Source: Hydrangea macrophylla (taxonomy: Eukaryota; Streptophyta; Magnoliopsida; Cornales; Hydrangeaceae). From it: a stretch of 64,000 nt of DNA. Under the pieces are notes generated by a model. That model worked only from the letters and a program-made list of their open reading frames with translations, made no database searches and was not told the origin of the DNA. The position numbers and the translations under genes are program-made. Location of the stretch: contig CM066997.1 of assembly GCA_033977485.1 (NCBI GenBank), forward strand, positions 74,370,634 through 74,434,633, written 5' to 3'. Positions 4,656 to 59,535 of this stretch are shown one piece after another (positions within the stretch are counted from its first letter, which is position 1; each line of letters begins with the position of its first letter).

Positions 4656-4685
4656 CTTATTGGATGGTCTCCACCCATTGCAGGA

Positions 4686-20877: not shown

Positions 20878-20929
20878 TTTCTCCCTCCCTAAAAGAAAGT
20901 TTGGTCCCCAAACTTACTCTTACCTCAAG

Positions 20930-21100
20930 TTTTGAAAAAGTGCGAGTACTTTTCTCAAATATCATCCTCTCGTTCCTAAGTAGCTTCTTCAATTGAATGG
21001 CTTTGCCATTGTACCATCACAAGTGGAAATACCTTAGTTTTCAAGACTTGATTCTTCTTATCAAGAATCATATATCCCTGAGTGAATATGAATTCTGAGA
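20930..21100 (-). pseudogene. Chromodomain remnant of gypsy integrase
   Basis: The - strand translation shows MILDKKNQVLKTKVFPLV then VQWQSHSIEEAT, followed after a stop by ERE. This is the typical C-terminal chromodomain of Tekay/Del chromoviruses, whose consensus has a V-W-NH-EEATWE pattern. The domain tethers integrase to histone marks. Here only its end survives and it holds at least one stop (the Trp of EEATW) and a frameshift. Its position directly upstream of the reverse LTR is as expected. The remaining 21131-21289 is unassigned. Confidence 0.75.
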
Positions 21101-21289
21101 GGCGATTTTGACAAAATCGGGATTTATGCATAGAAAAGGACTTTTCTGAGCTTGAAGTCACTTTTCAAAGTTCGATCTTTCGATTGTGTGGAATCCAGTA
21201 CTTTCCACGGGGTACTTTTCATCATCGAATCCTCCAAGACGTTGTCTACCATAAATCCTATTAGTGTAGTCAAAATTGGGTGTCTACAC

Positions 21290-22969
21290 CGGCTTATTGG
21301 TCTATTTCATGTGTATTTAGACATTGTTCATTGACGTCAAGAACGTAAGGACTAGTCTTTTCGTGTATACTCAAATCCCAGTGATACCCTATGGGAGTTG
21401 GGACCAGAATGGGAGTTAGTATTACGTTAGGAGACACATGGGATATATGTGTAGGCTGAGCCATGGTTGGGTGGCCGAGGTGGTGAACATAAGGTGTATT
21501 TGGATTGAATATTGTGGGATTTTTTTTATTTGCACCTGTACAGTTGTAATGTGGTTTATTATTTCCAATTATATGAAATTCAAGGAATTGGTAGACGTGT
21601 AGTTTTCATGATTTTAAATAATTTTGGTGTTGTGCCGTTAGCTGAAACGTAGTCTTTTATCTACAACGTACCATTTTTGGAAACATAGTCATTTGATAAT
21701 AAACTGGACCAAATTAGTAAATTGAATATTTTGGATACTTAGATTCATAGTTTATGGCCGTTTCGGGTTAACTGAAGTAAAACGACGATCCGAACAACTA
21801 TCGTGTTTTACACTTTTCCTAAAAACGTCATCTTGACACTATTTTTATTGATTTTCAGAATCTGCTGAACATCATCTATATAAGAGCTAAAATTTAATAA
21901 TTAATTTCTGAATTATCTATTTAGAATTAATGAACGGAGACACACGTCTTTCGTTAGAAATTTTATTCTTGACATTTTTCGTGTTTTAAGTTTTGTCTAA
22001 TTCCAGTTCTTTGTTGGAAATAAATTCATTTTAATTAATAGCACCTTGTTATTAGTTTCTATTATTGTACTAAGTTCTATTTGTACACGATGGTAGGCCC
22101 ACTAATGGTTTGCAGGTATCGGCCTACCATAGTTAAGAAAGGTAAGTAATTAGTTGTTTTAATTCGGGCAAGAAACTACTTGCTACCACATAAATGAAAC
22201 TACTCTATTGTCCTGATATGTGTGTGGAACTACCTGTCTTGGCCCAAGAATATTGTAGTGTGGTTTGTATTCTACGGGTTCAAGTTGGATCCATAAGACT
22301 TGTGTTTTGTTTAACTCATACCAGCCATGTGACTGACCCAAGTGTGTTATGCATTCGGGTGCATTTCTGTTTGAAACGTAGTCGGATGACGTGTGTAGGA
22401 TAGTATAGTTGGAGTTCATTTTGGAGCAGCCGATCTGTTTGTGAAGTTGAAGATATCTACTTTTCATTCTTTATGTATTATATGACACTCTTTTATTTAG
22501 TTGGCATTGTGAACCAAGGTTGAGAACTTGTATTAGATGCAGTTATATTTTAGTTGTATTATTGGACTTGGGGGGACGTTTATAGTACATCTGACCTGAG
22601 ATAGTGTAGAGTTGAAATTATTTCATTTCTTATTATAACTAGATAATTTTATTATAATTCAATGGAGGAAAATTTTATTATTTCTATGTAAAGGGAAACA
22701 TTTGGTTTTCATTTTGTAATAAATGAGAATGGAAAAAATTTGAAATGTGGATTTTTCTTGTAATATTTTTGGGAATGAGTTTGATGATAAATGAGTTTTG
22801 TTTAAATAGAAATCATATGATTTATGAAAGTAATTAAATTCATTTTTTCTTAAAATGGTGTTTTAAATTTGGGTGTGGGTTAGCAAGCTTGAATTTTTGG
22901 GAGGTTGAATATTGATCAGGGTATGCACTTGATTGGATATTTGACTTTCCAAAAATTCGTGGTGCGACA
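21290..22969 (+). mobile_element. 5' LTR (3' part only) of the LARD-like element
   Basis: Homologous to the end of the 3' LTR. It ends GGTGCGACA, against GGTGTCACA in the 3' LTR. The left breakpoint near 21289 follows CAAAATTGGGTGTCTACACC, where similarity to the other LTR ceases. Confidence 0.8.
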
Positions 22970-22972
22970 GTT

Positions 22973-22984
22973 TTGTATCAGAGC
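22973..22984 (+). promoter_or_regulatory. Primer-binding site, initiator-Met tRNA type
   Basis: TTGTATCAGAGC lies three bases after the LTR and matches the usual plant site TGGTATCAGAGC with one change. Confidence 0.75.
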
Positions 22985-24028
22985 TTATGGTTAGCTTAGC
23001 GAGTCTAAGTGATTCTCGTAATGTGGTTTATGGGTTGGTCAGAGCCTTAGGTTTGCGGATTTTTGGGATGGGGACTATGTGTTATTAAGTGCTTCTATTG
23101 CTTTGTGCTACTATGTGTTTCATGATACTATGTGTTTTGTTCTACAGTGTGCATTGTAACATGTTAGTCTTAAATGCATGTCATTTTCGGGATGGCTTAA
23201 TAGGAGCATACATGATACTGTTTAGATTTGCATGTTAGTGCATGCATCTTTGGTTGTAACGTTGGGGGTCTTATCAAGGGAAGTTTTCTTTTGGATCATG
23301 GAGGGAGAGATTAAAAAAATCTATGTGAAGGACTAAAAAAATCTTATTTGGGAGTTAGAGGCAGAGATTGGATATCTGGACTTCTCATGTGATCAACTGA
23401 TTTTCTTATCTCTATTGATTATCTATTGTTTTTTTTATGCGGAATCTATTACTATTGGTATTCTAGATTTCTTATCTTCTGATGCGGATATCATCAACGG
23501 GTATTCTAGATTTCTTATGATTATGATGTTGCTATTCTTATATATAGGAACTCTATTTTGTATGATTACTCTGGTGTAATTGTCGATGATATTCTGTTCT
23601 CAATGACATATTATGATCCGGATGGTTATAGATTTATCTTCAACGGTAGTATCGTCTTTTCAATCTTATTACTAGCAAGAAGTTTTGGAAGAATGAGCAT
23701 TCGCAGATACATTGGTTGATTAGTGAGTATTGAGAATTTCAAGGAGTATTAGAGTGGGGGTAAATGGTTTCATTCCTAATTTTATTCTTATATGTTGCAT
23801 TATTATCTATGTCTTAATTATCTGCTAACATTTAACAATTGACTATATAAGGCTAAATGTATATACATGAGGCTTTCCTTGTTTGGATTATTCGCTAGAT
23901 ATACTGGGCCTTGTATTGTTGAGAGTTAAATGTGAATCTGTGTTTTCTATTAGTTGTGTGTTTAACAATATTTATGAATAAGTATTTGTATTACTGTCGC
24001 TTCAAATTTCAAGACGAATTTTTCTTTA
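22985..24028 (+). other. Non-coding interior of the LARD-like element
   Basis: About 1.04 kb with stops in all frames and no gag or pol motif. The last 40 bases (AAGACGAATTTTTCTTTAAGG) resemble the non-coding lead-in to the purine tract in Tekay elements. Confidence 0.7.
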
Positions 24029-24040
24029 AGGAGGGTAGAA
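24029..24040 (+). promoter_or_regulatory. Polypurine tract
   Basis: AGGAGGGTAGAA ends exactly at the TG of the 3' LTR. It is the expected plus-strand primer. Confidence 0.75.
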
Positions 24041-24425
24041 TGTAACAACTCTAATTTTCTAAGTGCTTTTAGTAATTTTTATATTATTATTTTCAAGTAT
24101 CAGACATTAACTATGTGTATGTATCTTAGTGACACCTAATTAAAATATTGAAGTAGCATGTACAGGTTGTTAGTATGTTAAGTAGTGTGCTTAACATAGA
24201 AATTTAGTGCCCGGGGTCATGGGTACCCATTGGGCTAATCATTTATCACTTCAGAATGCATTTTCGGGCCTTTTTGTGAGGTCCTTAGACAAAAAATAGG
24301 ATTTACATGTTTGTGTGTGTTTTATTGATAAGTGTTGTGTGTGAAATATATATACACATTTATTAAACCCTAGCCCCCATTTAACGGAAAAAAAAGGGAA
24401 GAGAGGAAAAGAAAACAGAGAACAG

Positions 24426-24463
<38 letters not shown>

Positions 24464-24548
24464 AGAAGAAGAAGAAGAAGAAGAAGAATAAGAAGAAAAA
24501 AAAAGGAGGAGCCCCAAACTTATGTTTTGCGTAAACATCATCAACCTT

Positions 24549-24596
<48 letters not shown>

Positions 24597-27067
24597 AGAA
24601 GAAGAAGAAGAAGAATAAGAAGAAAAAAAAAGGAGGAGCCCCAAACTTATGTTTTGCGTAATCATCATCAACCTTGAAGCCCTAAATCGGTGAGTTAAAC
24701 TTTTGTTTTGAATATATATATATTGGAATATATTTGTATTTGAATCTATGTGTAAACTAGGATTTACAATGAAGATTGATTTTTGTGATCTTGTTGTTGT
24801 GGTTATGAATATGTGACTATTTTGATTAATCTAAATTTACGGTGGTTGAAGGAGAAAATAATTCATATAAAATTGTGGTTATTGAATTTTAGAATTCTGC
24901 TGGCATAAAACGCGATTCTGCACGTGTTTCGTCTAGTGGTGTTTTTCCCGATTCTACACCGTTTGGGGCAAAAAATTCATATTACAGTAGCAGTTTTATG
25001 AAGGTTAAAATAAGTGTATTTGCTATATCACATTTTTGTGTGATTTCGTGTTCGTTAATATGAATTAATTTGTTTGTACTTAGAGAGATATGAGTTCTCA
25101 TTTATAATAGAGCTTTGTGAAATTGTGACTGTGTGATTTTGTGTGGGTTATGAATCTGTGTGGACATGTAGCTGGTAATATAATTTTAATGAAAATTTGA
25201 TTTAGGATGTATGAATCTCTTATAAAGTTGAGTTTTGTGAAAAACGTGGATGTATGAACGTTAGAAAAGTCCTTAGAGTTCACCACTGCTCCTTATGATT
25301 TTAGGTGACGACTTCGTGGGTGACCCGTCTTTGTGTGATTAGACGGCGACTACGTGGATTACCCGTCTCTTCACTTTTAAGCCTTATGCTTGGCTTGTTG
25401 GTCTATTTCATGTGTATTTAGACATTGTTTATTGACGTCAAGAATGTAAGGACTAGCCTTTTGGTGTATACTCAAATCCCAGTGACACCGCATGGGAGTT
25501 GGGACCGAAGTGGGAGTTAGTATTACATTAGGAGACACATGGGATATATATGTAGGCTGAGCCATGGATGGGTGGGTGAGGTGGTGAACATAAGGTGTAA
25601 TTGGATTGAACATTAGTGATTTTTTTTATTTGCGGCTGTACGGTTGTAATTTGGTTTATTATTTTCAATTATTTGAAATTCTAGGAATTGGTAGACATGT
25701 AGTTTTCATGATTTTAAATAATTTCGGTGTTTTGCCGTTAGCTGAAGCATAGTCTTTTATCTGCAATGTACAATTTTTGGGAACGTAGCAATTTGATAAT
25801 AAATTGGACTAGATTAGTAAATTGAATATTTTGGATACTTAGATTCATTGTTTATAGCCGTTTCGCGTAAACAGAAGTAAAACGACGATCCGAAGAACTT
25901 TTGTGTTTGACACTTTTCCTAACAACATCATCATGGCACTATTTTCATCAATTTTTAGAATCTGCTGAACATCGTCTATATAAGAGCTGAAGTTTAATAA
26001 TTTATTTCTAAATTATCTATTTAGAATTAATGAACGGGGGTGCGTGTCTTTACTTGGAAATTTTATCCTTGACATTTTTCTAGTTTTAAGTTTTGTCTAA
26101 TTCTAGTTCTTTGTTGGAGATAAATTCATTTAAATTAATAGAACTTTGTTATTGGTTTCTATTATTGTGTTAAGTTCTATTTGTACAGGATGGTAGGCCC
26201 ACTAATGGTTTGCAGGTATCGGCCTACCATAGTTAAGAAAGGTAAGTATTTAGTTGTTTTAATTCGGGAAAGAAACTACTTGCCACCACATAAGTGGATT
26301 ACTCTATTGTCCAAATATATGTATGAAACTACCTGTCTTGGCCCAAGATTATTGTAGTGTGGTTTGTATTCTACAGGTTCAAGTTGGATCCATAAGACTG
26401 GTGTTTTGTTTAACTCATACCAGCCATGTGACTGATCTCGAGTGTGTTATGCATTCAGGTGCGTTTCTGTTTGAAACGTAGTTGGATGAGTGTGCAGGAT
26501 AATATAGTTGGAGTTCATTGTGGAGCAGCCGATCTATTTGTGAAGTTGAAGATATCTACTTTTCATTCTTTATGTATTATATGATACTCTTTTATTTAGT
26601 TTGCATTGTGAGCCAAGGTTGAGAACTTGTGTTAGATATAGTTATATTTCAGTTGTATTATTGGACTTTGGGGGATGTTTATAGCAGATCTAACCTGAGA
26701 TAGTGTAGTGTTGAAATTATTCCATTTATTATTATAACCAGATAATTTTATTGTGATTCAATGTGGGAAAATTTTTATTATTTCTATGTAAAGGGAAACG
26801 TTTGATTTTCATTTTGTAATAAATAAGAATGGAGAAAATTTGAAGCGTGGATTTTTCTTGTAATATTTTTGAGAATGAGTTTGATGATAAATGAGTTTTG
26901 TTTAAATAGAAATCATATGGTTTATGAAAGTAATTAAATTCATTTTTCTTTAAATGGTCTTTTAAAATTGGGTATGGGTTAGCAAGCTTGAATTTTTGGG
27001 TGGTTGAATATTGATCAGGGTATGCACTTGATTGGATATTTGGCTTTCCAAAAATTCAGGTGTCACA
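24041..27067 (+). mobile_element. 3' LTR of the LARD-like element
   Basis: Starts TGTAACAACTC and ends GGTGTCACA, 3.03 kb. A TATA-rich region at 24345-24362 precedes a GA/GAA-rich leader. The five bases after it are TCTTC; the matching 5' flank is lost. Confidence 0.8.
24430..24679 (+). repeat. Tandem duplication of about 125 bp with (GA)n(GAA)n
   Basis: Two copies (24430-24551 and 24552-24679) each consist of a GA tract, a GAA tract, an A-rich run and the unique sequence GCCCCAAACTTATGTTTTGC. They differ in microsatellite length and one base (AAACATCAT against AATCATCAT). Serine/leucine-rich open frames here are repeat translations. Confidence 0.9.
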
Positions 27068-28686
27068 TCTTCAGTCCATATTAAAGGTGACTCATAGCTG
27101 GTTATCGAAGAGATACCAGGTGATTTCGTGTCAAAAGCTTGGAATTTTCTCTATTCCACTCTATAGCTACTCAGCTGATCAACGATTTTGATGACATCAC
27201 AGTCGTCATATCTCAATATTGTCCAATTGGGATGCCGATGGGCTTGCCAAGGTTGGTTCAAGATCAATACAAGAGGTTGAGGAGAAAAGTATCACTATCC
27301 TTCAGCGTTCACTCCCTTCGGTGACTAAAAGAGAATGGTGTGTTGAGACTGCCTCTATTCTACTTGAGTAGAGCGATTGGAGAACTCCTATCAAGGAATA
27401 TCGTAATCACCCTGATGTGAGGGCAGACCGTTGAACTAGGATGTTTATAGTCCAATTTGTCCTTTTTGATGGAGAATTGTTCAAAAAAGTCATTGGGGAT
27501 GATGTCGTCCTAAATTGTTTGGGCAAGAGGAAGGCCATGAAGATCATGTATGAGGTCCATGAAGGAATTTGTAGGGTTCATTAAGCCGGCACCAAAATGA
27601 AATGATTGATCAAGCAATATAACTTTTACTGGCCAGCTATGCTAAAAGATTGTATCAACTAGGCCAAAGGATATCAGGCATGTCAAAGGCATGGCCCTAT
27701 TCAAAGGGTGGCAGCCAAAATTTTACATCCAATCATTAAGTCATGGCCCTTCAGAGGATGGATGATGGACTTAATTGGAAAAGTTCATCCAACTTCATCT
27801 GGGCAACATTGTTTTATCATAGTGGCCATCGATTACTTCACTAAGTGAGTAGAGGCTATACCTGCAAGATTAGTCACTCGGGCAATTATTATCAGGTTCA
27901 TTGAGCAATACATCATACACCGGTTTGGCTTACTAGAAATAATTACGCCCGATCAAGGCTCAGTGTTCACTGGAGATAAGACCAAAAGTTTCGCAGAAAG
28001 TATGGGCGTAAAAATTCTTACTTCCACCCCATACTATGCCCAGGCAAATGGCCAAGCCGAGTTTTCTAAAAAAGTTATCAAAGGGTTCTACGAAAAATGA
28101 TAAAGGAAAATCCCAGGTCATGGGACTCACTCCTTTCTGAGGCAGTATGGGCTTATCGGACATCCAAAAACAAACAAGTACAGGAATAATACCATTTGCT
28201 TTAACTTACGGGCATGATGCAATACTGCCCATGGAAGTGACAATCTAATCAGCAAGAAGGGCATTTGCAAAATCAGTTAGAACCTGCCGATTATACTGAA
28301 GCTATGATCACTGAGTTAGAAGGGTTGGATGAGGTCAGATTACATGCTCTAGATTAGTTTAAAGTGCAGAAAAACTATGCTGCCAAATCTTACAATAAAA
28401 AAGTAAGGGCAAAGTCATTTGGTTTAGAGAAGCTCGTTTGGAAGGTCTATCGGTGAAAAGGATAGGAGGTATGGTAAGTGGTCCATTAATTGGGAAGGAC
28501 CATTTGTGATCTTTCAAAATTTAAGGGTGGTGCTTATCAGTTGCGTGACATTGATGGTGAAGTCCATTCAAGATTAATTAATGGTTAGTATTTAAAGTCC
28601 TATTATCCTACACTATAGGAAATTGTAGATTTGGAGTTCAGACCAAACCCAGACATAGAATATGAACCACTCATCAATCCGAAGTA
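27068..28686 (+). pseudogene. Gypsy (Tat/Ogre-like) RNase H end and integrase
   Basis: Read across several frames, the region shows the HHCC zinc-binding part (VHEGIC, then YWPAMLKDC, CQACQRHG-like) and the DDE core. The first Asp is in WMMDLIGKVHP, the second in TPDQGSVF, and the Glu in NGQAEFSKKVI. It ends with the usual C-terminal segments AKSYNKKV and a final stop at 28684-28686 after INPK. The enzyme would insert the cDNA into the host genome. In-frame stops (for example KCVE read as K-stop-VE near 27846) and frameshifts before 27450 and after 28170 inactivate it. Downstream genes are antisense and end convergently 60 bp away. Confidence 0.85.
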
Positions 28687-28746
28687 AAATACATGAGTAG
28701 AAGGGGATGATTGTTTCATTCATTCAAGAGAATATTTACAAAAAAA

Positions 28747-30051
28747 TCAAAAGAAGGAAAGACGCAAATAGAAAGGAACAAAAGCAAGTAAAATACGACC
28801 GATAAGGCTAGTCCTCATCGGTCTAAGATACATCGACCATCTTATTTTATGCCCAGGCCTCTCGGCCTGCCTGTCAACCTCTTCAAGACAGCCTGCCAAG
28901 AACTCTGCTTCCCTCTTCCACCGCCACTTTCCCTGTTTAACATAATCAAGGAAGCACTCCAGGTTCGTGATCCTTCTTCGAGAAGACCTCTCCCCAACCA
29001 GTATAGAGGCTGGAAGGTCGTCATTCGATAAATTACCAAAATTTGAGACCCAAGCCTCCTCTAGCTCTGGAGCATCCTTGGGCAGAGAGACTCCTTCCCT
29101 GGAGCTTTCTCCCACTTCAAAAGCCCTCGGTCAGACTGGGCTGTCATCATCATCGGCCCTAGAGACCGACCTTGCTTCACCTTCAGAAGAACCATCGGTC
29201 TCCAGGATGATGGTTTCCTTATTTTTGTCTCTAGCAGGGGCACGAAGCCTCTGCTCTTGGAGACGAGCATATCATTGTCATCCATTCACTGGAGGTACAG
29301 CTGAAGACTCCTCGATCGCTGGAACAGCTGGCACATCACTTGCTACTGGATCTTCTTCAGGCTCCACCAGCACAACAGCGTGGGCAGCTCGAACAGCCTA
29401 ATAAGGGATATTTTGAGGTGCCGAATTTGCCTACAAATCCCCCCAGAGGGCCCACATTGCTTGTTCAATGCTAGGAATCTGCCCGTTTGGCCCCATCAGG
29501 AAGTCTGAGCTCAAACGGGATTGGATGGCCATTTTGGGGGCCTCTTTTTGGTAACCCTTTTTCCCTGACAGAAGGATCTTTATCCGGTCATGGAAAGCAT
29601 TTGCATTGAATGTACGAGGAAAGATACCCTCATATTGAACAAGCACAACAGCGACCGAAACTAGAACATAGGGATATTTTCCCTAGTCTTTGTTGGGCTG
29701 ATTAAGCTCAGACAGCACATTGTGCCCGCTTGAACGCATACAATAGACCTTTCCCCTAGTACAGAGAATCTTGTAGTAGTCTAGAATGGTTTGCACTATC
29801 ATCTTTAACCATAAACAAACATTGAGCACGTCAAAACCATAGAACAAACTGAGAGTGTTTGGGATACACACGTGGAGTGCCAACCCTAGCATTGTCAGAA
29901 AATCTACCACACCAGTAAGCAAGGGAAAGTAGATGCCAACTACCAGCAATAGGTAGGCCCTGTAAGAAATAAGCCCTCAGGTGTCTGGTATCTCACAATG
30001 AGATCGGAAGCAAGCCTAGGTCTCCTCGGTTGCTAGAAAGTTGATAGCCAT
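28747..30051 (-). pseudogene. Antisense ORF 2 of element B, unknown protein
   Basis: From an ATG at 30049-30051 a broken - strand reading runs to a TAA at 28747. Surviving segments are: a hydrophobic part (LLVVGIYFPLLTGVVDFLTM, then NVCLWLKMIVQTILDYY, near 29680-29950), a basic part with GKKGYQKEAPKMAIQ and FLMGPNGQIPSIEQAMWALW (29431-29646), a low-complexity acidic stretch, and a charged helical tail (ECFLDYVKQGKWRWKREAE, 28747-29115). Stops or frameshifts fall near 29680, 29430, 29290 and 29120. I do not recognise the family. The hydrophobic segments could be buried helices rather than membrane spans. It lies downstream of the PMD gene on the same strand. Confidence 0.55.
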
Positions 30052-30154
30052 GGATGAAGAGGAAGAAAAGGGTTCGGAAGGCAGGGGGTTCTCTTGGTAG
30101 CAGAAGAAAGAGACTTGAAATTTTATAGGTATAGGGTTAGGGGATCACTAGGGC

Positions 30155-30162
30155 TATTATAT
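30155..30162 (-). promoter_or_regulatory. TATA-like box upstream of antisense ORF 2
   Basis: CCTATATAATAG on the - strand lies about 104 bp upstream of the ATG at 30051, a distance compatible with a plant core promoter and short leader. Confidence 0.4.
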
Positions 30163-30739
30163 AGGAACACCCACTTCTCAAAAGGAGATGGTTTAATTGG
30201 AAAACATCCCCTTTTGCCACCTAAAAATTCCCCATCTTTTGAAAGGATCTTAGCCCTACACGTGTCATTTCATCTAGACGGTCAAAATGGCCCTCTTTAA
30301 ACTCTGCATGCTTTTTCCATGTACGGAAGTGGCTGAAAAGACACTCATTTATTGATGGAAATCATTAGGTTTATTCTTTGGGAGATGGACAGTTAGCCAC
30401 AACCATCCATGTGTCATGATCGGAAGCGACAATGTCTCAAGAACGTCAGCTGCTTTAATTGATGTGACGTTTTGGGTCACAAACTTACAAAAAAGCTCTC
30501 CATCGTGTTAGATAGGCCTATAGACCTAAGACCTATCGGCCTACCACTTTTCTAACCTATGGTGGAAATAAAATCAATCAACAAAATGAACAGAAATTAA
30601 GACACAAACAACTCAAAAAAAATTCTCATTCATTTTTAAGGATCTTCATTACAAGGAATTACAGTAACAAAATACATGAACCGACCATCAGGCCAATGAA
30701 TACCTTCCTAAATTCTCCTTCAAAATAGCCCAGACCCTT
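30163..30739. other. Spacer between the two antisense genes
   Basis: No coding motif was recognised. It would hold the 3' UTR of the PMD gene and the promoter of the second antisense gene. Confidence 0.5.
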
Positions 30740-33700
30740 CTACCTTCCATTCATCTTCTTCAATACAGCATAGGTTAGCACCCCATTCTGTGGCACTAGG
30801 AAGAAGAGGGTGCAGTCTCTTGGCAAAGGACGACCTTTCTTGGCCACAGCAGCATCAACTATGGCTATATCCTTGAGACAAGCTTTCTCTTGAGTTTTAT
30901 AGTCCGCCAAATCCTTATAAAGGACCATGGTTCTCTGTTGAATCTTGTCAAGCTTTGTCACAAGTTGGCCTCGTATGATAGACGCACCTTTAAATCACTG
31001 CTTGGCCTCACCCACCGTTTTCACATCTTTATTATAGGCCAACAGCTTGGGTTCAAAATAAGCCCAAGCTTTGGCAGCAGTAGTAAAGGTTGCATGATAG
31101 GATGGAAAATGCTCCTTTAAGTCTTCCAGAATGGAATTCTACTCAGCATTGAGGGTAGGATCCTGCTGTAGGAGAAACGCTCTAGAGATGAAAACAAAAG
31201 GGGAAAGGGCTTCCTTTAGGGTGCTTAGGGAGAGCCTATTAATAAAATCCCTAGCACATTGAAGGTCTTCAGGCTTGGCTATTTGGACGATGGGCATTTT
31301 TACCTTTAGAGTGTTCCCATCCAGCTTTTGAAAAAATACAGCAGGATCAAAGGTAGTTGAGCCAGTAGGTTCCTGGAAACAAAAGTGAGACCTGTAGGAT
31401 CAGTTGAACAAATGGGAATGACTGGTATCAGGAGCCTAAGAAAAAATAGGTACCTGAGAAGTAGGCCAATCGACGTCCGTCGTTAATTCTGTCTGGCTTA
31501 CCATAATGGCCAAAGAGGATTCGGTCGTTTCATCCAAAAGGGATGACATCCCCACATCAATAATGGGATCACCGTTATGCTCTCCAGTCACTGCAGTATC
31601 AGGAGCAGTGCTTGAGGGGGCAGAGGTGGAAGCAAAATGGCTGGGGTCAGGATTGGTTGAAGGGCACTCTGTTTCCTTACCAGTAGGAAGGGAATCCAGG
31701 ACATTGGACACAACTAGATTTACCACCCTTGCAGTTTCATCCATCAACTCCTTTTCCAGTTCTTCTTCCTCGACAACATCCTTTTCCACTGAGACTATTT
31801 ATTGTTCATTTTGCTCTCTGGGCACTTCTTCTTCCTCATCAGTTGAGGAGACCACCGCCCCCTTTGTCCCTTTCACCAAAGAGGACACCATGGACTTCTG
31901 TCTCAGCCTCTTGGCCAATGGAAGAATCATGTCAAAGGAGGCAGAGGGTAGGACAACATCTTTGATAGCCATTTGACTGGCCAAGAAAGGAAGATCCGTT
32001 GATATAGAAGGTTGGCTCCTTATTCCCCTCTTCGTCAGTAGAGGTTGAGTAGGAACCACGGCCTGTCCAAACAGAATTCTATTAGTGTTAAAACAAGATC
32101 GAGATATGCACAAAGGATGAAAGAAATGTTTACTGGGATATCGGTGGCTGGGAGCATTTTTCTTTTCTTCATTCCAGGGATCTTGGTTATTTCCTCCTCA
32201 GAGGGGATAATTATAGCAGAGATTGAGACCGATAATTATAGCAGAGATTGAGACCGTATTTTTCGTTTGTTTTTTATTCTTTTTGGTAGTTAGGATAGAT
32301 GTTGGGGGAACAAGAGGCTCAACAACCATACCTCATGTATTTGGAGAGAGTTTCTGCAATAATACAGAAATGGGTTCTCCAAAGATAAGTCTGAACCTCT
32401 CAGCTCACCAAGCGTCGAAGGCAAGGGTTGTCCTTGAAAACTTCGTAAAAGGGTGGAAGATAAAATTTTTCTTGGCTAAGTTGGAGTCTTTCTTCACGAG
32501 TTTCACATGGGCAGCGGTGGTAAGCATCACCTGGTCGATTAAATCTACATTCATTGACTAAAAGTAAGAATCGGCACCATCTGGGTCAGCCCAAACTGAC
32601 GAGCCAGAAGCTGAGGGTGGTAAAATTCAGCCCCACATTTGTTGTTGCTCTTTGGCAAAGAAGAGCTATAAAGTATGTCCCGACAGACAAGGTAGTTGGA
32701 GAAAATTTTGTAATATAAGGCTTGTATTTCTTGTTCATCACCAACCAAATGGGTTGGAAGTCTAAGGAAGGAGGGAAGAGTTGAGGAAGAAGTTAAGGGA
32801 AGAAAAGAAGATGGAAGTCAGAGTTTGGTCTCATAGAAGAAAGAGAAACATGCATCAAAAGTGTGGTTTTTGTGTTTAACATCAACAGAATGACGAGTCA
32901 AGATTGCTGTGTTTGAAGGAGAACTATCGGCCAGTTGGAACTTAGGGAAGTAAAGATGAAGCCAAAGTTGGATAAGATATACAGGGGCCACTAGCATTTT
33001 TACAGCCCGAGATCAAAAAGTCTCTCACTCCTCTGCATAAGTGAGACCACACTAGGGTGGCCAGAGTTAGCGGCCTACCTTGGCTCAATGCCCAAGCAAG
33101 AGGGATGCACTCTTTTGTGATTGCCTGGGAGGTCGAGCAAAAAATGAACCGGTTTAGCCAATACAAAAGAAAAGCCATGTGTTTTTCTTCTGTTACCATG
33201 GATCCATCCTTCCCGCAGCAGTGAGTAGTGAACCCTCTGTAAGAGATCACGGGCTTTTTAGAGGACGGCTTCGAGAAAGATGAAGCTAGCCTGACCATTG
33301 TCAAAACCTGGAAAGACCTCCTCTCCTTAGGGGTAGAAGCCCAAGAAAAGGCTGACATCCTAGATTGTTGGGTCCATCAGTCCCCGTTTGAACAAAAAGC
33401 AATTCTGAGATTGAGACCAGAATGCTAGGGCAGCAAACAATAATGCTCAATCCACGGGATGTTTTTGTTTGCATAGCATAATGGCTTCATATATGCCCTC
33501 ATCTTCCATAAACCCTTCTTCACCGCCGCTACACGGTCTACCAATTCCACCCAACCAGCAGCCAAAGAAGGCCACCCCCGTACTGGGATTGATTATTTAT
33601 AATTTTGACGAAAGTGTCCTAGATTAAAAAGGTAATCACCGTGAATAAGGGAAAGGAAAGGTTGAAATCTTTAGGGGCAACCCCAAAGAAAGCAGGGCCT

Positions 33701-33854
33701 AAACCAACGGTCACAGAAGAAGTCTTCGTCGCCTCTAGGTTAATGAAGGGGGAAGAAAAGTGAGTGGAGGCGTGAGATAACAAAAGGACCTAAATATGTT
33801 CGGAATGGACATATCACTATCTAACGCAGCTGTACTAGGAGAAGTGGAGGCCAT
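30740..33854 (-). pseudogene. Antisense gene 1 of element B: plant mobile domain (PMD) protein
   Basis: From an ATG at 33852-33854 (MASTSPSTAALDSD) the - strand encodes, across several frames, a protein of the retroelement-type plant mobile domain (aminotransferase-like) family. Diagnostic segments, N to C, are: CFLFKRGLMDPTI-like (near 33380), DVSAFSW, EKHMAFLLYWLNRFIFC and ITKECIPLAWALSQGRPLTL (33000-33190), a GP-x-ISYPTL segment, then GAEFYHPQLLARQFGLTQ (near 32600). An acidic, Ser/Thr-rich tail (31436-32113) and a lysine/alanine-rich, probably coiled-coil C-terminus follow to a stop at 30740. Frameshifts and stops occur near 33790, 33600, 32940, 32550, 31795 and 31140. Host PMD proteins (MAIN/MAIL type) act in silencing; the role of the retroelement versions is not established. 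Confidence 0.75.
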
Positions 33855-33952
33855 CTTTGAGAAAAGAGTAAGGAAATAGAGGTTTAAAAGAAATTAGGGC
33901 AGAATTGGAGAAAGCAGAAGAAGAAGACAAACAAAGGATGACTAACAAAGGA

Positions 33953-33960
33953 TATTTATA
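33953..33960 (-). promoter_or_regulatory. TATA box upstream of antisense PMD gene
   Basis: GGCTATAAATATCC on the - strand lies about 100 bp upstream of the ATG, with a purine/pyrimidine-skewed leader between. It suggests the antisense gene has its own promoter rather than relying on the LTR. Confidence 0.5.
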
Positions 33961-34100
33961 GCCTTCCCCACGCTTGCAGGCAAGAAAAACAAATCACCCC
34001 TTTATTTCAAAATTTGAACTGACTTCTCCCCAAGGTGACATGTGGCATGCTCAGCTTCAAAATGTTACATTAAACATTGTGACCGTTTGATGTCATGTCT

Positions 34101-34111
34101 TGGGGGGCAAT
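34101..34111 (+). promoter_or_regulatory. Polypurine tract of element B
   Basis: TGGGGGGCAAT lies directly before the LTR start TGTAGACACCC. It is the same type of tract as in elements A and D. Confidence 0.75.
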
Positions 34112-34801
34112 TGTAGACACCCAAAAAATGCATAAAGTCTAGAATAGCATGATGAAAGACTAACCATCGTGCTGCCTTACTCCATCATGTTGTCTTACTC
34201 CATCGTGCTGCTTATTAAGTGATTCTTTTATCGGATTGATGAAGACTTCCTCAAGAATATTGGCGCAATTTCTAAGGAATAGATATCTCCAGAGGATGAG
34301 AAAGATCACCAAAAAGTTGCCAGAATTCATGATGAATGCAAGTGGAAAGAGCGGTTGAAGTGAAGTGCCAACCAATGAGAGAATGTGGAAGTTCCAAGAA
34401 CCATCAACGTGGCTAAGCTCATTGGACATGGCTCACCAAGATCGCTTGGCCTCAAACTGCCAGAAACATGGATTTTGCTTATAAATGCAGGACATATTCC
34501 ATAGGGAAATGGACCTGCATCTCAAAACTAAATCCAAAAGCATACCAAAACACTTTGCACCTTTTACAAAGCTTTCCTTTGTCTTTTTCATCTTTGTGTA
34601 ACTTTAGTTCAACTCATAAACTGTTCGTAAGCCCTTAAATTAATACTAGTCCAAGTTTTGATCAATAGAATGTCTTTTCTCTTCAAGGTAGTCTGATTGT
34701 CCATTAAAGCTTGTTGATTTATTTGGTTGCTTTCCCCATCTTCTTGTGTGCTTCAATACAAAGAACCTTTAGCTAGGGTACTTTCCAACTAGTTTTTAAC
34801 A
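34112..34801 (+). mobile_element. 3' LTR of element B
   Basis: Starts TGTAGACACCC and ends near TTTTTAACA (34801), about 690 bp. It includes a three-copy repeat of about 20 bp (ACTCCATCRTGYTGYCTT type, 34165-34215) and a TATAAATG box at 34480-34487. The right end is inferred without a partner LTR. Confidence 0.65.
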
Positions 34802-35157
34802 ATCACCAAAATGACAGAAGTTAGATCGTGCATTACTCGCACAAAGTATTAGGAAAAATCACGTTTGCATTCATACTTACACACATACACAATCGATCGT
34901 TGAACAGCTCTGGCACGCCCGAAGCAAAATAATAAGAGTGAACAGATTCTGACCCTTCTATTGGTAAATTTAGTGTCCCAGTCGATTGGAACATTTCCCA
35001 ATCAATTGCCCAATTTGGTATCCCAATGGATTGCCCTTTTCCCAATGATTAAAGTCTTGCCGACATAACTAATCGATTACACTCTTACCTATCTATTGAC
35101 TTCATAAATATCTTATACCAATCGATTGGCCCCTAGTCCCAATTGATTGGTCGGGAT
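34802..35157. other. Remnant resembling the Athila-like LTR
   Basis: Contains at least five variants of CCAATCGATTGG, the palindromic phrase that also recurs in the LTR at 41234-42781. It is interrupted by the solo LTR that follows. Confidence 0.45.
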
Positions 35158-38100
35158 TATGGACACGCGGAATTCCACCTCTTGATTGTTTTGAAATTGT
35201 TTTGAAAAGGAAAAGAAAAGGTCTGTTGAAAACAGATACAGAGTCGCCACTTGGTCTTTAAGGAACCAAGAAACCTAATTTGACTCACCCGAATGGATAA
35301 AGGGCACCGGCCTTTCATAACCAAAGAACTTGGCTCGGGGTTTTGGTACGAGAGAGGAAGGAGCCTTTGTCACAACTAAAACACCCTCAACTCACCCCAT
35401 CTCTCCATGGGCCTCAATTAGCATCCAAATAATCATCTTATACTATGTTTGGTTTGACAATTAATACTATGATAGTATATTACATCTCATAAGAATATTG
35501 AAATGGAAGATCAAAAGATAAGATATCATTCATAAGATCTAAGCCAAATATCACACAATGCAAAAGTGAAAGATCACACAAAAAAACTTAGGAAAAATCA
35601 TCTAATCACATATCAAGTAATCAAGTTTTTCTAATCCAAGGGGACATGGATTGTTCTTGAAACAAATAATCAAAGAAATCAAAATATGCTTAGCAAACTA
35701 ATATGATGCATGTTAATCTTTGAGAAAAGAAGATCTCTCAATCCCCGAGACGGATGAGAAAGGAAGATTAGATCGAGGGGGAGCATGAACGTATGATCAA
35801 ATTCATTCCTTATAATCCTCTTAGATTAGGAGTTGCAAAAACCCCAAATCTTGCATGGATGCAATGCATCGACTTAGGATATGCCAAGGTTGTAATGTGT
35901 TTGTATACATGGACATTCTAAAGTGATTTAGAAGTCTAAAAAGTGAATGAATGCATGAAGGGAATCATCATGGGATATGTAAAAATATGGTATGGATCAC
36001 TTCCTAGGATATGAACTAATTTGGAGTACATATAAGCATCAAATCAAAGGATGGAAGTAAAAGTATACTTGCTGTGAATAGTGGACAAAATAGTGACTTG
36101 ATCTTGTGTAAAATGAATTGTAGGGTTAGAAATGTTTTCAATGCATGATTTTTTATGGAGATCATCCTTATTCTATCTATAACACAAATCAAAAAGCCAA
36201 GCCTCAATAACTATTACAGATTGAGAGAAAGCATATAAATAATAGAGGCCACTCAGATACAAAATCTGTACTGTCGACTGAAATGTCAAAAAATCTTAGA
36301 AAATGAAAACGACACATCTAGAGGCCCATATTATACAAAATGTTCCCTAAGACAATGAAGGTCAAGGGAAAAATGAGTTGGGATTACTCCTTTTGGAAAT
36401 GTTTTCTGTAAAACAAGTTGAAAGTCAACCAAGCTGCTGTGACATCAAAAATAGAATGTCTGGAAGGAATGTTTGGGTCCAAATGGACCCCTTTCATGTG
36501 TTTCCAAGTCAAACCAAAAATCATGGATGTTGTATAATGAGTTAAGAAGGCTTTCCAAGTGGTCTCATGTTAATACTTTGAGTATTGAGTCGTAGAGAAA
36601 TCATTGAACTTAGATTGTTCACTGTTTTGAAGATTTTGGAAGGAACTATGGTTTTATTCTTTGAAACCTAAATGAGGGGTTTAAGAGGGGATTTGAAATA
36701 ATGGTTTTGAGAGTATTTTTTCAGCACTTAAATGGAGATTATGGCCACTTGAAATATCATTATTGAAAGCCTATCAAGATCCTCCAAGATTGTTGGGGAT
36801 ATTGCTTTCATTTTTTAAGACAACTTCAAGAATACATGGGAATGTATTGAAGTTGAAATCATCATCTATCAAACATATTTTTGAGGTCAAGAGCTACTAT
36901 CCATAAGGATTCACTCACCTCAAACTTCATGTCATCATATAGATGATGATAGACTAGTAAGTGAATAAAGAAAATAAAAAAGAAATGAGATTAAGGAGAG
37001 ATGAGCATAATATGTAAAACAAGCAAGTAAGTAATCAATAGATGATATTCATGATGATTTTGGACTTGTAGCTTGGTGTTTCACTCATATATGGTGACTT
37101 TAGACATAGAAGAAGCTTCCTATCTCACAAATGCTCACTAAAATGGTGGTTGGGTGTATTGAATGTGAAGTAAATGGGAGTAATGAAGTAGAAAACAAAG
37201 TTTAGAACTCACTTTTTAGTTGAAAATCAAAGAAAGAAGCTCACTTTCACTCTCCTAACCTTATCTTCTACAACTTTTCTCTCTATAACTTCTCTAAGCT
37301 TTTGTATTTCCACCCCCAAAATGAGAAGTCAAGGGGGGGTTATATAGGCTAATTTGGGGGGAGTTTGGGATTTTAAAAGTGCTCACATTGGTCCAATATG
37401 TCGTTTTGGTTTCTAATTAATCAATTTGGGTTCCCAAAAGAAATTTCAAAAATGGACTATTCAGGAGGAGAGTGTCGCGGCAGCACTGGGCCTATGCCAC
37501 GGTGGTACTGCTCCTCTAATGTTTAGATAATGCCATTTAGGCCCCTAGAGGTTTCGGTATTCGCGAAAAGGCCCTATTTCGTCCGAAATTCACAGAAAAA
37601 GCGCATGAACTCCAAACTAAGGTTGTGATATACTGTTTAAAAGGTAATGGAGTCTACTTTACATAACAAATAGTTCGCAGATAGGTTACTTTAAAAAGTT
37701 TTGCGGTATTCGCGATAAAAGCCGATTTGATCTCTTTTTCACCTTCGGAAATTCATAATAAATTCGTTTTAAATCCATGAATTATGTGCAATATACTGTT
37801 GGAAAGCTATTGACCTCTAGCATTCATGAAAAATGTTTGAAAAATGATACGGTGCTTTAGTTTCTAAGTCAACTTTTAGGTCAAATCAGTCAAACCTGGG
37901 ATTCCCGGGAAGTTTCAGGAACTTAAAGCTCCCAAGAGCTGACGTTTTCGTCCGATTTTCTTTTAAAACTCATTTTAGTACTTTTCACATGATCTAGAAT
38001 GATCTTGGAACTTTTTGGCAAAATTTAGATGATTTTGGTCAAACCTGGTCAAACTTCGGTCAAACCGGTCAACGAGGACTTGTTGGGAACTTCCAGGACT

Positions 38101-38370
38101 TCCGAGGGTCTCTGGGAGCTGATGATTTCATCCAATTTGGCTTGAAAACTCAATTTATGACTTTCCTTATGACATAGTATGTTTCCAGAACTTTCGATCC
38201 AAATCTGGGAGTGTTTGGGCTTTTAAGGGCATTTTGGTCATATTTACCACTTTCTGAGCATTTCAAGAGATAGAGCTAGCTTCCAAGAGTCCTTTTTGAG
38301 TCGTTTTGATCATTGTGAACCACCAAGCTGTGGGTCTCAATCTGATAGCCGACAAAATGGGGTGTCTACA
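35158..38370 (-). mobile_element. Ogre-like solo LTR (reverse)
   Basis: On the - strand it opens TGTAGACACCCCATTTTG at 38370 and ends CGCGTGTCCATA at 35158, 3.2 kb. That is the size and sequence type of the LTRs at 55176 and 58695. The flanking 5-mers GGGAT (35153-35157) and AGGAT (38371-38375) differ by one base and look like the target duplication. No interior is present, so it arose by LTR-LTR recombination. Confidence 0.85.
37339..37346 (-). promoter_or_regulatory. TATA box of the reverse Ogre-like solo LTR
   Basis: GCCTATATAACC on the - strand, about 1.03 kb inside the LTR. It corresponds to the boxes at 43825, 56203 and (mutated) 59747. Confidence 0.6.
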
Positions 38371-38724
38371 AGGATTTGAACTTGGTCTCCAAGTTTGCAT
38401 GAGGTTTTGACATTTGGCACTCTTATGCTCTATATATATGCTTCCATTTTGTGCCTATAAGAGAGTTTGATAGATTTTTAGAGAGAGAGATACACCTTTA
38501 TATATATACCAATGTATATATGCATACTGACACACCCACATATATATATATACACATACACACACTGCCTAGGCAGAAGAAGAAGAAGAAGAAGAAGAAG
38601 AAGAAGAAGAAGAGAAGCAAAGAAAGAAAGAAAAGATAGAAAGATAAGATAAGACAGAGAAGAGAGAAGGAAAGAGGAGAGAAAAAGCTTTGAGCGTCCA
38701 TAGCCTCACACAGACAGAGGCAAT
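38371..38724 (+). other. LTR-like flank with TATA and (GAA)n tract
   Basis: Contains CTCTATATATATGC, TA/CA microsatellites and a GAA microsatellite (38575-38613). It abuts RT coding sequence with no gag, so a deletion or recombination junction lies near 38720. Confidence 0.5.
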
Positions 38725-41225
38725 GCCCTGCTCTCTTTCATGGATGCCTACTCCAGATAAAACTAGATCTGGATGTTCTTTGGAGATGAATAAAAGGCAT
38801 TGTTCATCACTGATCAAGGAATGCACTACTATAAAGTGATGCCCTTCAGACTTAAGAACGCAAGGGTAACTTATCAATGCCTAGTCAACCTTATGTTTAG
38901 AACCTTGATCAGGTAGAGCATAGAAGTGTATGTTGATGACCTCTTGGCCAAAAGCATGCAAGAATTGGATCATCTTTAACATTTAGCTGAGACCTTCAGC
39001 ATCCCGAAAAAGTTCCAAATGAAGCTGAACCTTCACAAGTATGCCTTTGGTGTCTCCTCTAGAAAATTATTTTGTCACATGGTAACTAGGCCGGATATCG
39101 AAGCCAATCCAGAGAAGATCCAGGCAATCATCAACATGCGATCACCAAGATCAAAAAAATAAGTTCAGAGACTAGCGGGATGTATAACAGGATTAAACAG
39201 GTTTGTGTCCCGAGCTACTAACCGGTGCCTGCCATTCTTCAAGATCCTTAGCAAAGCCTTCGAGTGGTTGGAAGAGTGTGAGAGGGCATTCTAGTTACTG
39301 AAGAAGTACCTGGCTTCGACCCCATTGCCTCGACACCCACTCCAAGAAAGGAGTTGTTCCTATACCTGGCGGTATCTCTATCAGTCGTCAGCTCAACCCT
39401 GGTCAGAGAAGAGCACATGATCTAGTATCTGGTGTACTATACAAATCGAACCCTCTAAGATGTGGGGAGTAGATATTCACGTGTTGAGAAGCTAGCTTTT
39501 ATACTCATTACCTCGGCTAGACGCCTCTGCCCTTATTTTTAGGCCCCCACCATAGTTGTTATCACCAACCAACTGCTGTGAAGGATTTTATCCTAACCAG
39601 AGACCTCTGGTCGGCTTATGAAGTGGTCTTTAAATTAGAAGAGTTTAATGTAGTCTATAGACCGGTGACAGTTATAAAAGGTTAGGCCGTGGTTTTTCTA
39701 CAAAGTTTACCTATCCGGAAGACCTAATTGAGGAGCCATCATAACTCGACCTACCACTAGAGTTACAGGCATCAAACCTGACCTGGGTCCTATATGCTGA
39801 CGGGTCTTCCAAGAACCAAGGGATTGGAGTGGGAACCATCTTGACTACCCCCAATGGGATTCTGATTGAGCATGACCTAAGGTTCTAGTTCGAGGCCTCC
39901 AACAACGAAACTGAGTATGAAGCATTACTGGCTAGGCTACAACTGTTCACTTCCATAGGAGTTCAACAAGTACGGGTATTCAGTGATTCATAATTTGTGG
40001 TCAATCAAGTCCTAGACCAGTATGAGGCTAGAGAAGACAACATGGTAGTCTACCTAGCACTTATCAGGCAGGTTATTGGCAAGCTGAAAGGCTTGTCGAT
40101 CACCCAAATCCTAAGAAAAGATAATATCAAGGCTGACAAGTTGGCACCTTTAGCCTCATCCTCCGAGTCAAATCTCTAGGGTATCTAAGTGTACTACCTT
40201 CTCGAGCCAAGTATGACACACGAAGAAGGTATAGAGATCGACCTAGTAGACTAGGGTCCCAACTGACCCCATCTCCATCTTCCTAAGTACCGAAGAGCTC
40301 CCGACCGGTAAGTCCGAGGTGAGGTGCATTAGGTATAGAGCAATCAAGTATCCCCTCATTGACGGCATCCTATACAGGAGATGATGTACCAGCCCTTACC
40401 TCTAATGTGTTCACCTTATCCAATCCAATGGTATCCTCTCATAAATATATGAAGGGGTATATAGGAGTCACATCGGAGGTCAGGCACTGTCTAGGAGAGC
40501 TCTACTCCAAGTTTATTTTTGGCCTACTATGGCTTGGGACTCTCAGGACTATGTGAGGAAGTGCGATAAATGCCAGAGGTATGCAAACATGTCTAATGTC
40601 CCAACAAAAAACCAGACTCCTATCCTCAGCCCTTGACAATTCATGTAGTGGGGCATTGATATAGTCGACCCCCTACCAATGACAAAATGCTAGGTCCAAT
40701 TTACTATCATCGCGATGGATTACTTTACCAAGTGGGTAGAAGCTAAGCCACTAGCAACGATCACAGAAAAAAAAGATGGAAAATTTCATTAAATGAAACA
40801 TCATCAGTTGGTTTGGAATTCCCCGAGTACTTGTCAGTGACAATGGTAGGCAGTTCGATACACCAGTGTTTAGGAAGTTTTGCTCAAGTCATGGCCTCTA
40901 TAACCACTGTTCCTCACCAGAGAGAAAACAGGCAGGCCGAGGTAATGAACTGAATGATCCTACAGTCTATCAAGATAAGATTAGAGAATGCAAAAGGACT
41001 TTGGGTAGCAGGGTTACCGGGCTTTTTATGGGCCTATCGCATGATACCCCGAGCTTCAACAGGTGAGATCGCATCTCGCTCACATACCGATTCAAGGCAG
41101 TAGTCTCGATTGACCTCAGCCTGGCATCGTATAGGGTAGGCAACTTTAGTGCATAGGAAAATAAGGGACTGGTTAGAACAGAGCTTGACCTTATTGAGAA
41201 AAAAGAGATCGGGCCTTGATGAGGG
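38725..41225 (+). pseudogene. Tat-type gypsy Pol: RT, RNase H, aRNase H, integrase (decayed)
   Basis: Read across all three frames, the domain order is as follows. RT begins near LLSFMDAYS (38730), then YYKVMPFRLKNA and the catalytic box YVDDLLAKS (38930). A decayed RNase H lies at 39300-39560. A second, archaeal-type RNase H shows YADGSS (39800), NETEYEALLA (39905) and FSDS (39980). The integrase has CDKCQRYA zinc ligands (40565), WGIDIV, SDNGRQFD (40838) and GQAEV-like (40935). The extra RNase H marks the Tat lineage (Athila lacks it). More than a dozen stops and frameshifts are visible, so it is long dead. No gag or 5' LTR precedes it. Confidence 0.85.
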
Positions 41226-51700: not shown

Positions 51701-52385
51701 AGTCACCAAGTTTATTTTAGAAAGATGTGAAATGGAGCATCTTTTATTCTCAAAGCTAAGGCACTAATTCAAAGCACACTTTGGATAAGCAAAAATAATT
51801 GGCTAGACTCTAGGGAGGAATCTTCAAAGTACAGATTTATTAGCAGAATGCTACCCCAAAAAGACGAGAAGTGCACATATAAGAAAAGCGATACATTATT
51901 TATGACAAAGACACATTGAATTATGGCAATTTGGGCGCTTCGTGCCATTATTTTTGGAAAATCAATCCTTCTTTGGTTGAGTCAATAGTAATCTAATCAA
52001 AAGTGTGTCAGAGCTCAAAGCTTCATACGAACTAACCCATTTTATCTGTCATCTCTACTCCTGTCAAGTCCATTAATCCCGATGGTCTCAAATGTGTGGG
52101 TTTAAGGTGACTCCCATTATTAAAAAAAATAATGGATACAAGCAGAAGTTCCAAACACTGTTACTGTACTATCAAGGCTGCAACATGATGGTAGTCCCAT
52201 GATCTCGAGAATCAGTGACACCCTCCAATCACAGTCATTTGTCTTTATAAGTTAGTCTGCAAAATCCACTGGCTATCATCCTCTCATTCCTCGGTAATCA
52301 AATCAAAATCATGTCACAAATTTCCTCCCCCCAGTAGAATCTTCTCATCCCCAGCAGGCTTATCGATTCATCATTGTTAGTTCTT
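51701..52385 (+). other. Spacer in element A 3' region
   Basis: No repeat or coding motif recognised. Confidence 0.5.
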
Positions 52386-53045
52386 CTAATCATGGTCAGT
52401 CCAACCATCAATCATTTTTATGACAGTCACAGTAGTTCACTATCAACTCGTCACCTCAATTAGTACATCGTTGGTCCAATTCATGACAGTCATAGTAGTT
52501 CACTATCGACTCATCGTCTCGATTAGTACATCATTGGTCTAATACGTGATAGTCATAGTAGTTCACTACTAACTCATTACCTTGATTAGTACATCATTGG
52601 TCCAATCCATGACAGTAACAATAGTTCACTGTCGACTTATCACCTCGATTAGTACATCGTTGTTCCAATTTATGACAGTCATAGTAGTTCACTATCGATT
52701 TGTCATCTTGATTAGTTCATCGTTTGCCCAATCCATGACAATCACAATAGCTCATTACTGACTCATCACCTCGATTAGTACATCATTGGTCCAATCCATG
52801 ATAATCACAGTAGTTCATTGTTGACTCATCACCTCGATTAGTACATCGTTGGTCCAATCCATGATGGTTATAGTAGTTCACTATCGACTCGTCGTCTCGA
52901 TTAGTACATCGTTGGTCCAATCCATGACAACTATAGTTGTTCACTATCGACTCGTCGTCTTGATAAGTACATCGTTAATCCAATCATAGCAGTTCATTGT
53001 CGACTCGTCATCTCGATTAATACATCACCAGTCCTTCTGATCACA
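52386..53045 (+). repeat. 63-bp tandem array, about 10 units
   Basis: Units carry TAGTTCACTATCGACTCGTC, TCGATTAGTACATCGTTGG and TCCAATCCATGACAGTC in order, at a steady period of 62-64 bp (starts near 52430, 52493, 52557, 52620, 52684, 52748, 52811, 52874, 52937). Units differ by several substitutions each; the last two are shortened. Confidence 0.9.
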
Positions 53046-53079
53046 GTAATCTTTGCTGAAGTCTTCCATGGTAATCCTC

Positions 53080-58100: not shown

Positions 58101-58426
58101 TCAAACCAAACATAGTATAAGATGATTATTTGGATGCTAATTGAGGCCCGTCGAGAGACGGGGTGATTTGAGGGTGTTTTAGTCGTGACAAAGGCTCCTT
58201 CCTCTCTCGTACCAAAATCCCAAGCCAAGTTCTTTGGTTATGAAGGGTTGGTGCCCTTTATCCATTTAGGTGAGTCAAAATTGGGTTTCTTGGTTCCCTA
58301 AAGACCAAGTGGCGACTCTGTATCTGTTTTCATCAAATCTTTTTCAAATCAATTTTAAAACAAGGAAATTAATTCTAAAACCCCGGTAAAGAACAGGGGG
58401 TGGACTCCCAAGGCCGCGTGTCCTCA
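55176..58426 (+). mobile_element. 3' LTR of element A
   Basis: Runs from TATAGACACCCCATTTT to GTGTCCTCA, 3.25 kb. TATA box TATATAAA at 56203-56210, a 16-bp C run at 57766-57781, and the conserved block GGCCCGTCGAGAGACGGG (58145-58162) near the right end. The terminal TG is mutated, so the exact left end rests on alignment with the other copies. Confidence 0.85.
56203..56210 (+). promoter_or_regulatory. TATA box of element A 3' LTR
   Basis: TATATAAA at the position equivalent to 43825 in the 5' LTR. Confidence 0.6.
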
Positions 58427-59470: not shown

Positions 59471-59535
59471 AAATAGGGCATTTTTGCGAATACCGAAATC
59501 TCTGGGGGCCTAAATACAAATTTTTGGACGTCTAA

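Follow-up and report, generated by a model that had tools for sequence, protein, structure and literature searches.

Work by Steinbauerova in 2011 reportedly dealt with extra open reading frames (ORFs) of Ogre/Tat retrotransposons that bear a plant mobile domain (PMD). The present analysis concerns such a domain on the minus strand of a 64,000-nucleotide stretch of the Hydrangea macrophylla genome (GCA_033977485.1, contig CM066997.1, C16:74370634-74434633; referred to below as the window). As one joint explanation, it is considered probable that this part of the window is what decay has left of an accessory gene from a Ty3/gypsy retrotransposon of the Tat lineage, and that the gene, in its working form, would be an independent antisense transcription unit giving a spliced PMD protein that acts on the host silencing machinery.

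PMDs are described in extra ORFs of Tat and other Gypsy elements (PMC6317226, PMC9289625), pfam10536 is reported in 57% of Ogre elements (PMC6317226) and the PMD-A clades are assigned to Gypsy elements (PMC5418596). Domain and element class are thus the same as in the window, and reverse-oriented 3' ORFs are a recognised type, eORF-3'R (PMC6317226, PMC9289625). However, the survey in PMC6317226, as its text describes it, counted uninterrupted frames with a minimum length of 250 codons, whereas the gene considered here has a conserved TATA box, two introns and three exons. Reports of antisense ORFs in Tat elements go back to the 1990s (Grande, RIRE2), although their function is described as unsettled (PMC7264820). 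Gene23 of maize Grande likewise lies antisense between pol and the 3' long terminal repeat (LTR); it is transcribed from its own promoter and its protein is nuclear (PMC7264820). For these antisense ORFs, that review states no clear similarity to other proteins, whereas a PMD is present here. The antisense TRP28 ORFs of Retand carry another domain, Transposase_28, found in 97% of young Retand clusters (PMC11963269). PF04195, by which a Retand-type frame would be recognized, had no match in the window antisense pieces or in the two antisense frames of L044, an open relative of the window gene at C1:47153600-47160400. Already in print, therefore, are PMDs in Tat extra ORFs, antisense ORFs behind pol, an own promoter (Grande) and the idea of counter-silencing (PMC6317226, PMC7264820, PMC5418596, PMC8616336, PMC9289625, PMC11963269). 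A limited literature search found no report of introns or a conserved TATA box for Tat antisense ORFs, and the word 'intron' is absent from the main text of PMC7264820 and PMC11963269.

The initial annotation of the window had proposed a PMD-type protein on the minus strand, between the integrase and the 3' LTR of a Tat-like element, with a TATA box about 100 bp before its ATG, and had named as checks a profile search of the minus-strand translation against PF10536 and an estimate of the ratio of nonsynonymous to synonymous substitution rates (dN/dS). The profile search, once run, matched the open piece 32945-33376 to PF10536 (E 1.4e-9, 38 bits, cut-off 34.9), and an integrase at 27849-28097 on the plus strand and an LTR starting at 34112 flank the gene as described. 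The TATA box TATAAATA is found at 33960-33953, 106 bases from the ATG, and the Tat-like character is borne out through L044, which has a dual RNase H. As to an antisense PMD gene belonging to the element, the domain, the TATA box and the open relatives all speak for it; what did not stand is any coding capacity at this site, for the window copy cannot make the protein. Of the grounds for refutation named in that annotation, the two that were examined, a missing PMD match and missing homologues beside a Tat-type pol, did not apply. The score exceeds the curated PF10536 cut-off both in the window piece and in L044 (113.9 bits). A further piece, 32554-32817, with FYHPQLLARQFGLTQ, corresponds weakly to a stretch further along the profile, at 13.3 bits (E 0.048), which is under the cut-off. 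The parts of the gene are read as follows, in the order of the putative transcript.

33953 to 33960, minus strand: TATA box TATAAATA, upstream of the ATG at 33854
32134 to 33854, minus strand: exon 1, which opens with the ATG at 33854 and encodes the plant mobile domain; interrupted by stops and frame changes
32063 to 32133, minus strand: putative intron 1 remnant, 71 bases, GT..AG, with a branch-point-like CTAAT
31454 to 32062, minus strand: exon 2, a serine- and acid-rich linker, in two open pieces split by a stop at 31799-31801
31373 to 31453, minus strand: putative intron 2 remnant, 81 bases, GT..AG
30740 to 31372, minus strand: exon 3, a helix-rich, coiled-coil-like protein end (judged by eye), with two stops

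Aligned to its open counterpart in L044, exon 1 falls into three main pieces, colinear but in changing frames, with four stops in 33691-32984, one in 32988-32569 and two in 32557-32273. A tblastn search with L044 exon 3 aligned 31372-30839 (27% identity, E 3e-11), with two further stops. The frames aligned to L044 (exons 1 and 3) thus hold nine stops in total, although some of these may sit past an earlier frame shift and are not necessarily separate lesions, and the frame changes go beyond what introns account for. The window copy of the PMD gene is dead, and since stops break the integrase part of pol too, the window locus can make neither protein. That all frame changes in the window are damage was considered and dropped, as two are better explained as introns. 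In the Pfam scan, exon 2 gave no family for 31439-31798 and a weak below-cut-off match for 31802-32197, and exon 3 gave nothing at or above cut-off. A protein search returned two relatives with the single PMD piece and 12 with a three-sequence alignment; they were mostly short fragments, three being Rhododendron and Prunus proteins, and none came with genomic context. No relative of the PMD piece was found in a viral contig database, and no close one among solved structures (best E 0.25). Exon 1 also contains a perfect 25-base tandem duplication at 32206-32256.

Relatives were sought in the same genome (2.22 Gb, 19 contigs) with the 144-aa PMD piece of the window; scores were computed for the best 150 of 4220 candidates, which is not a census, and the two groups given here were counted by eye with the window itself set aside. 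Among these 150, 58 matches had at least 58% identity to the query, and 49 of the 58 had one or more stops in the matched stretch; judged by their sequences, they are an old, decayed family. The other 91 lay at 44-57% identity, with stops in seven and open frames of up to 803 aa. This group we call a younger sister family, on the strength of five that were looked at (L044, L045 and the places behind L046, L047 and L048). The stop counts are not frequencies, because the ranking favours open copies.

In L044, an 803-aa open frame with a near-complete PMD (E 1.2e-32) reads through an in-frame intron 1. On its opposite strand is a 907-aa open pol frame, cut by the edge of the locus, with reverse transcriptase, RNase H, RVT_3 and integrase in order. 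The succession RT_RNaseH, RVT_3, rve supplies the second RNase H by which Tat elements are recognized, an aRH between RNase H and integrase being typical of the angiosperm members (PMC6317226). Of pol, just the 3' end survives in the window copy, which has no RNase H match of its own; the stretch that separates its pol match from the LTR is long (about 5.4 kb) and holds the antisense gene, as expected of a Tat element with an extra ORF. A PMD in that ORF is shared with many Ogre elements, as a frequent feature and not a definition. Beside three further PMD frames, 700 bases were taken at the place predicted for integrase, and an integrase was found opposite the PMD in all three (95-99% identical to that of L044, no stops). 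The orientation in relatives is thus read from L044 and three look-ups (L046-L048). The homologues next to a Tat-type pol that the initial annotation had hoped to see in this genome are accordingly L044 and three more copies, which are termed open and not intact, as gag and the 5' ends lie outside the fetched sequence. From their sequences, we read the open copies as carrying a putatively independently promoted, spliced antisense accessory gene.

The second check proposed, dN/dS, was carried out with our own Nei-Gojobori scripts. Exon 1 of L044 and L045 aligns over 569 codons without a gap, with 48, 27 and 202 differences at the first, second and third codon positions, and dN/dS is 0.076 (dN 0.060, dS 0.795), falling to 0.04 over the 320 PMD codons. 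A whole-frame value of 0.12 (626 codons) counts the intron as codons. The leader before the ATG, by comparison, is 74.5% identical between the two (120/161), with gaps. For the integrase, L044 against L046, L047 and L048 gave 0.047, 0.022 and 0.090 (232-233 codons), where L046 has only 13 differences and L047 is near saturation. The antisense gene thus appears about as constrained as pol. Between the window and 11 copies of its family, dN/dS was 0.11-0.27 in 10 unsaturated pairs (92-94 codons), values biased downward because the copies were found by protein similarity to the same piece; saturated synonymous sites left no ratio for the window with L037 or for all but one cross-family pair. On these alignments, purifying selection is indicated for the PMD protein. 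These figures bear on a proposal made for the class (PMC7264820) and possible in principle, namely that the functional product is an antisense RNA that pairs with the sense transcript to limit or tune the element, the frame being incidental. A dN/dS of 0.08 over 569 gapless codons argues for selection on the protein, and L044 and L045 have intron interiors of different length and sequence. We regard an RNA as the functional product as very unlikely.

An exact TATAAATA occurs 52-140 bases upstream of 13 of the 1437 minus-strand ATGs in the window, and the looser TATAWAW of 90 of them. A lone TATAAATA is therefore weak evidence, its distance of 106 bases was dropped as telling by itself, and it is the conservation in relatives that counts. 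Across the window and 10 relatives, AAGGCTATAAATA is the best-conserved upstream stretch, its 8-mers ranking 1-7 of 322 (11 copies; L042 was left out for want of an upstream alignment, and the set contains neither L044 nor L045). L033, L034, L040, L041 and L043 have the exact TATAAATA, L035, L036 and L038 differ from it by one change and L037 and L039 by two, and CTATA is kept in 10/10. The ATGGC start is likewise preserved in all 10, and another conserved motif, GCCCTAATT, is found some 46 bases upstream of the ATG. By these comparisons the TATA box is conserved in the family, which supports a promoter of the gene's own. This promoter would sit within the element, between the PMD gene and the 3' LTR, reading away from that LTR.

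Between L044 and L045, coding similarity lapses over a stretch of 81 bases in the former and 68 in the latter, with GT and AG ends, little resemblance and an interior that differs in length and sequence. In L045 the stretch is read as an intron because its 68 bases do not divide into whole codons and the frame continues only on its removal. In the window and four family copies, the GT of intron 1 is found in 5/5, the AG in 4/5 and a branch-point-like CTAAC or CTAAT in 4/5. For intron 2, similarity to L044 exon 3 starts at 31372, the base directly after the acceptor, and the counterpart in L044 is a 90-base GT-AG stretch. Because these signals read GT-AG in antisense RNA only, we treat them as evidence from evolution and infer that an antisense transcript is made and spliced.

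Several points weigh against the explanation favoured here. An exact TATAAATA is present in just five of the 10 aligned relatives, and the sister copies lack it, having TATTTAAA instead, at -97 in L044 and -129 in L045. The intron 1 acceptor AG is missing in L034, seven of the 12 family loci have no exon 2 match and are hence uninformative on this intron, and intron 2 is seen whole in the window and L044 only. Antisense transcription and splicing are read from signals in DNA, the copies compared were found by protein similarity among the best 150 of 4220 candidates, and selection could maintain the PMD protein for another task. Likewise, the tie of a transposon-borne PMD protein to host silencing is drawn by analogy.

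The top PF10536 matches in the genome, as far as they were fetched, were rejected as the window's family, as they turned out to be single-frame PMD proteins or genes borne by Mutator-like elements (MULEs). The single-frame proteins are probably MAIN-like host genes; L028 is the one that was scanned with Pfam. Five full-profile PMD matches, four free of stops and the fifth with a TAG, lie together with one partial match within about 0.3 Mb at C13:8652593-8965236 (L001, L002, L004, L005, L028), and this cluster is probably one of MAIN-like host genes in tandem. In the MULE L010, an 804-aa transposase frame (PF10551, E 6.5e-18) and a SWIM frame are accompanied by a multi-exon PMD gene on the opposite strand, and the transposase domain was found in 4/4 elements scanned (L010, L023, L024, L026). 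L009 and L011-L017 are 96-99.9% identical to L010 over the main aligned pieces, and all nine of L009-L017 have an open first PMD frame of 258 aa. Perfect terminal inverted repeats extend over at least 149 bases in L010 and at least 304 bases in L017, the fetched sequence ending within them in both cases. Three GT-AG introns agree among L009, L010, L023, L024 and L026. The MULE copies are not all intact, as L023 has a two-base gap in its second PMD exon. For diverged copies, dN/dS was 0.11-0.26 in PMD exon 1 (dS being saturated in several pairs and one pair giving no ratio) and 0.24-0.30 in the transposase, while near-identical pairs, with few differences, gave 0.29, 0.58, no ratio and, for the transposase, 2.3. 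The diverged sequences suggest purifying selection on both MULE genes. PMD genes of MULEs were described earlier with a suggested counter-silencing role (PMC5418596), but in a DNA transposon; that paper reports PMD-transposase fusions, whereas the MULEs here have a separate, convergent PMD gene.

With so many MULE copies bearing PMD genes in the genome, the window gene might be debris of a MULE, or a host gene fragment, that landed in the element. However, the window pieces have no counterpart at E <= 1e-3 in L009-L017, L023, L024 and L026, and an rve integrase, in place of a MULE transposase, stands opposite the PMD gene. The 58 further family matches also speak against debris, 10 of the 11 fetched sharing the TATA/start upstream region, as does the sister family, which has its PMD gene at the same place in the element. 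Such an origin is very hard to credit.

What remains of the element around the gene is as follows.

25392 to 27057, plus strand: right member of a nested LTR-like pair, abutting the end of pol; its partner, 21291-22958, is 91% identical
27066 to 28677, plus strand: surviving 3' end of pol, with stops; 67.5% identity to L044 pol by blastn over 1644 aligned columns
27849 to 28097, plus strand: integrase core; rve E 7.6e-6, 26.6 bits, under the cut-off of 32.6; 67% identity to the L044 integrase
34112 to 34800, plus strand: start of the 3' LTR, TGTAGACACCC at 34112 after a G-rich tract; the end is a guessed minimum

The pol frame 27441-28098 has four stops in 219 codons. No second copy of the LTR at 34112 is listed in the self-comparison of the window, and the upstream (5') part of the Tat element was not found in these 64 kb, being cut off at the repeat pair. 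That pair (21291-27057), with repeats of 1.67 kb each set 2.4 kb apart and low-complexity sequence in between, looks like a nested non-autonomous LTR element. Between integrase and PMD gene, the minus strand holds a 127-aa open frame at 28750-29130 without a Pfam family. Neither an Rfam scan of 20000-40000 nor a transfer RNA (tRNA) scan of the whole window gave matches. Elsewhere, a 3.2 kb LTR-like stretch on the minus strand (35169-38370) is about 80% identical to 55178-58363 and 58697-61902 and may be a solo LTR, flanked by ATCC sequences that nearly match. Near 47.5 kb lies a related LTR-like copy, and after it comes TGGCGACTC, taken to be a tRNA-Arg-type primer site. The plus-strand stretch 3718-5111, with zf-RVT and RVT_3/RNase H matches, is probably the end of an element of the long interspersed nuclear element (LINE) type, and 52354-53046 is an array of 63-base tandem repeats.

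In the mechanism proposed for working copies, RNA polymerase II would start at the TATA-type promoter between the PMD gene and the 3' LTR, and the antisense transcript would be spliced twice, yielding a protein whose plant mobile domain is N-terminal and is followed by a linker rich in acidic residues and serine and by a helix-rich end. As the introns read as introns in antisense RNA only, they would survive passage through the sense genomic RNA, which would not offer them to the spliceosome. The protein may then work in the nucleus, where it would benefit the element by imitating the PMD-based silencing machinery of the host (MAIN/MAIL1-PP7L) or by occupying it. MAIN and MAIL1 have the same plant mobile domain, silence transposons and interact with PP7L, but are host genes outside transposons (PMC5418596, PMC7156037). 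Use of their own PMD proteins against silencing has been proposed for MULEs (PMC5418596) and for transposons in general (PMC8616336).

The same gene might, however, serve the life cycle of the element, whether by bringing the pre-integration complex into the nucleus, by selecting integration sites or by helping particles to assemble. In Grande, the antisense gene gives a nuclear protein, and roles suggested in print include regulation and transport (PMC7264820, PMC11963269), and selection on the PMD protein fits a life-cycle role equally. On the other side, the host relatives of the PMD act in silencing (PMC5418596, PMC7156037), and its presence as a separate gene in an unrelated class, the MULEs, is a better fit to a host-facing role than to one in reverse transcription. 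A life-cycle role is a possibility to be taken seriously, if the less probable one; by analogy, interference with the host silencing pathway would be the likeliest role, slightly ahead of it.

A wider suggestion, which we put forward tentatively and with some doubt, is that the PMD is a general counter-silencing module, Tat retrotransposons and MULEs each carrying an intron-bearing, antisense PMD gene under purifying selection. The MAIN/MAIL1-PP7L pathway might be the target of this module or its domesticated descendant, and antisense placement might let a retrotransposon keep a spliced gene. With a conserved core promoter, antisense-only introns and integrase-like constraint, the question shifts from whether these frames are genes to what their protein does. 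The PMD acts in transposon silencing in Arabidopsis, and the open retrotransposon and MULE versions in one genome make the idea of an arms race directly testable.

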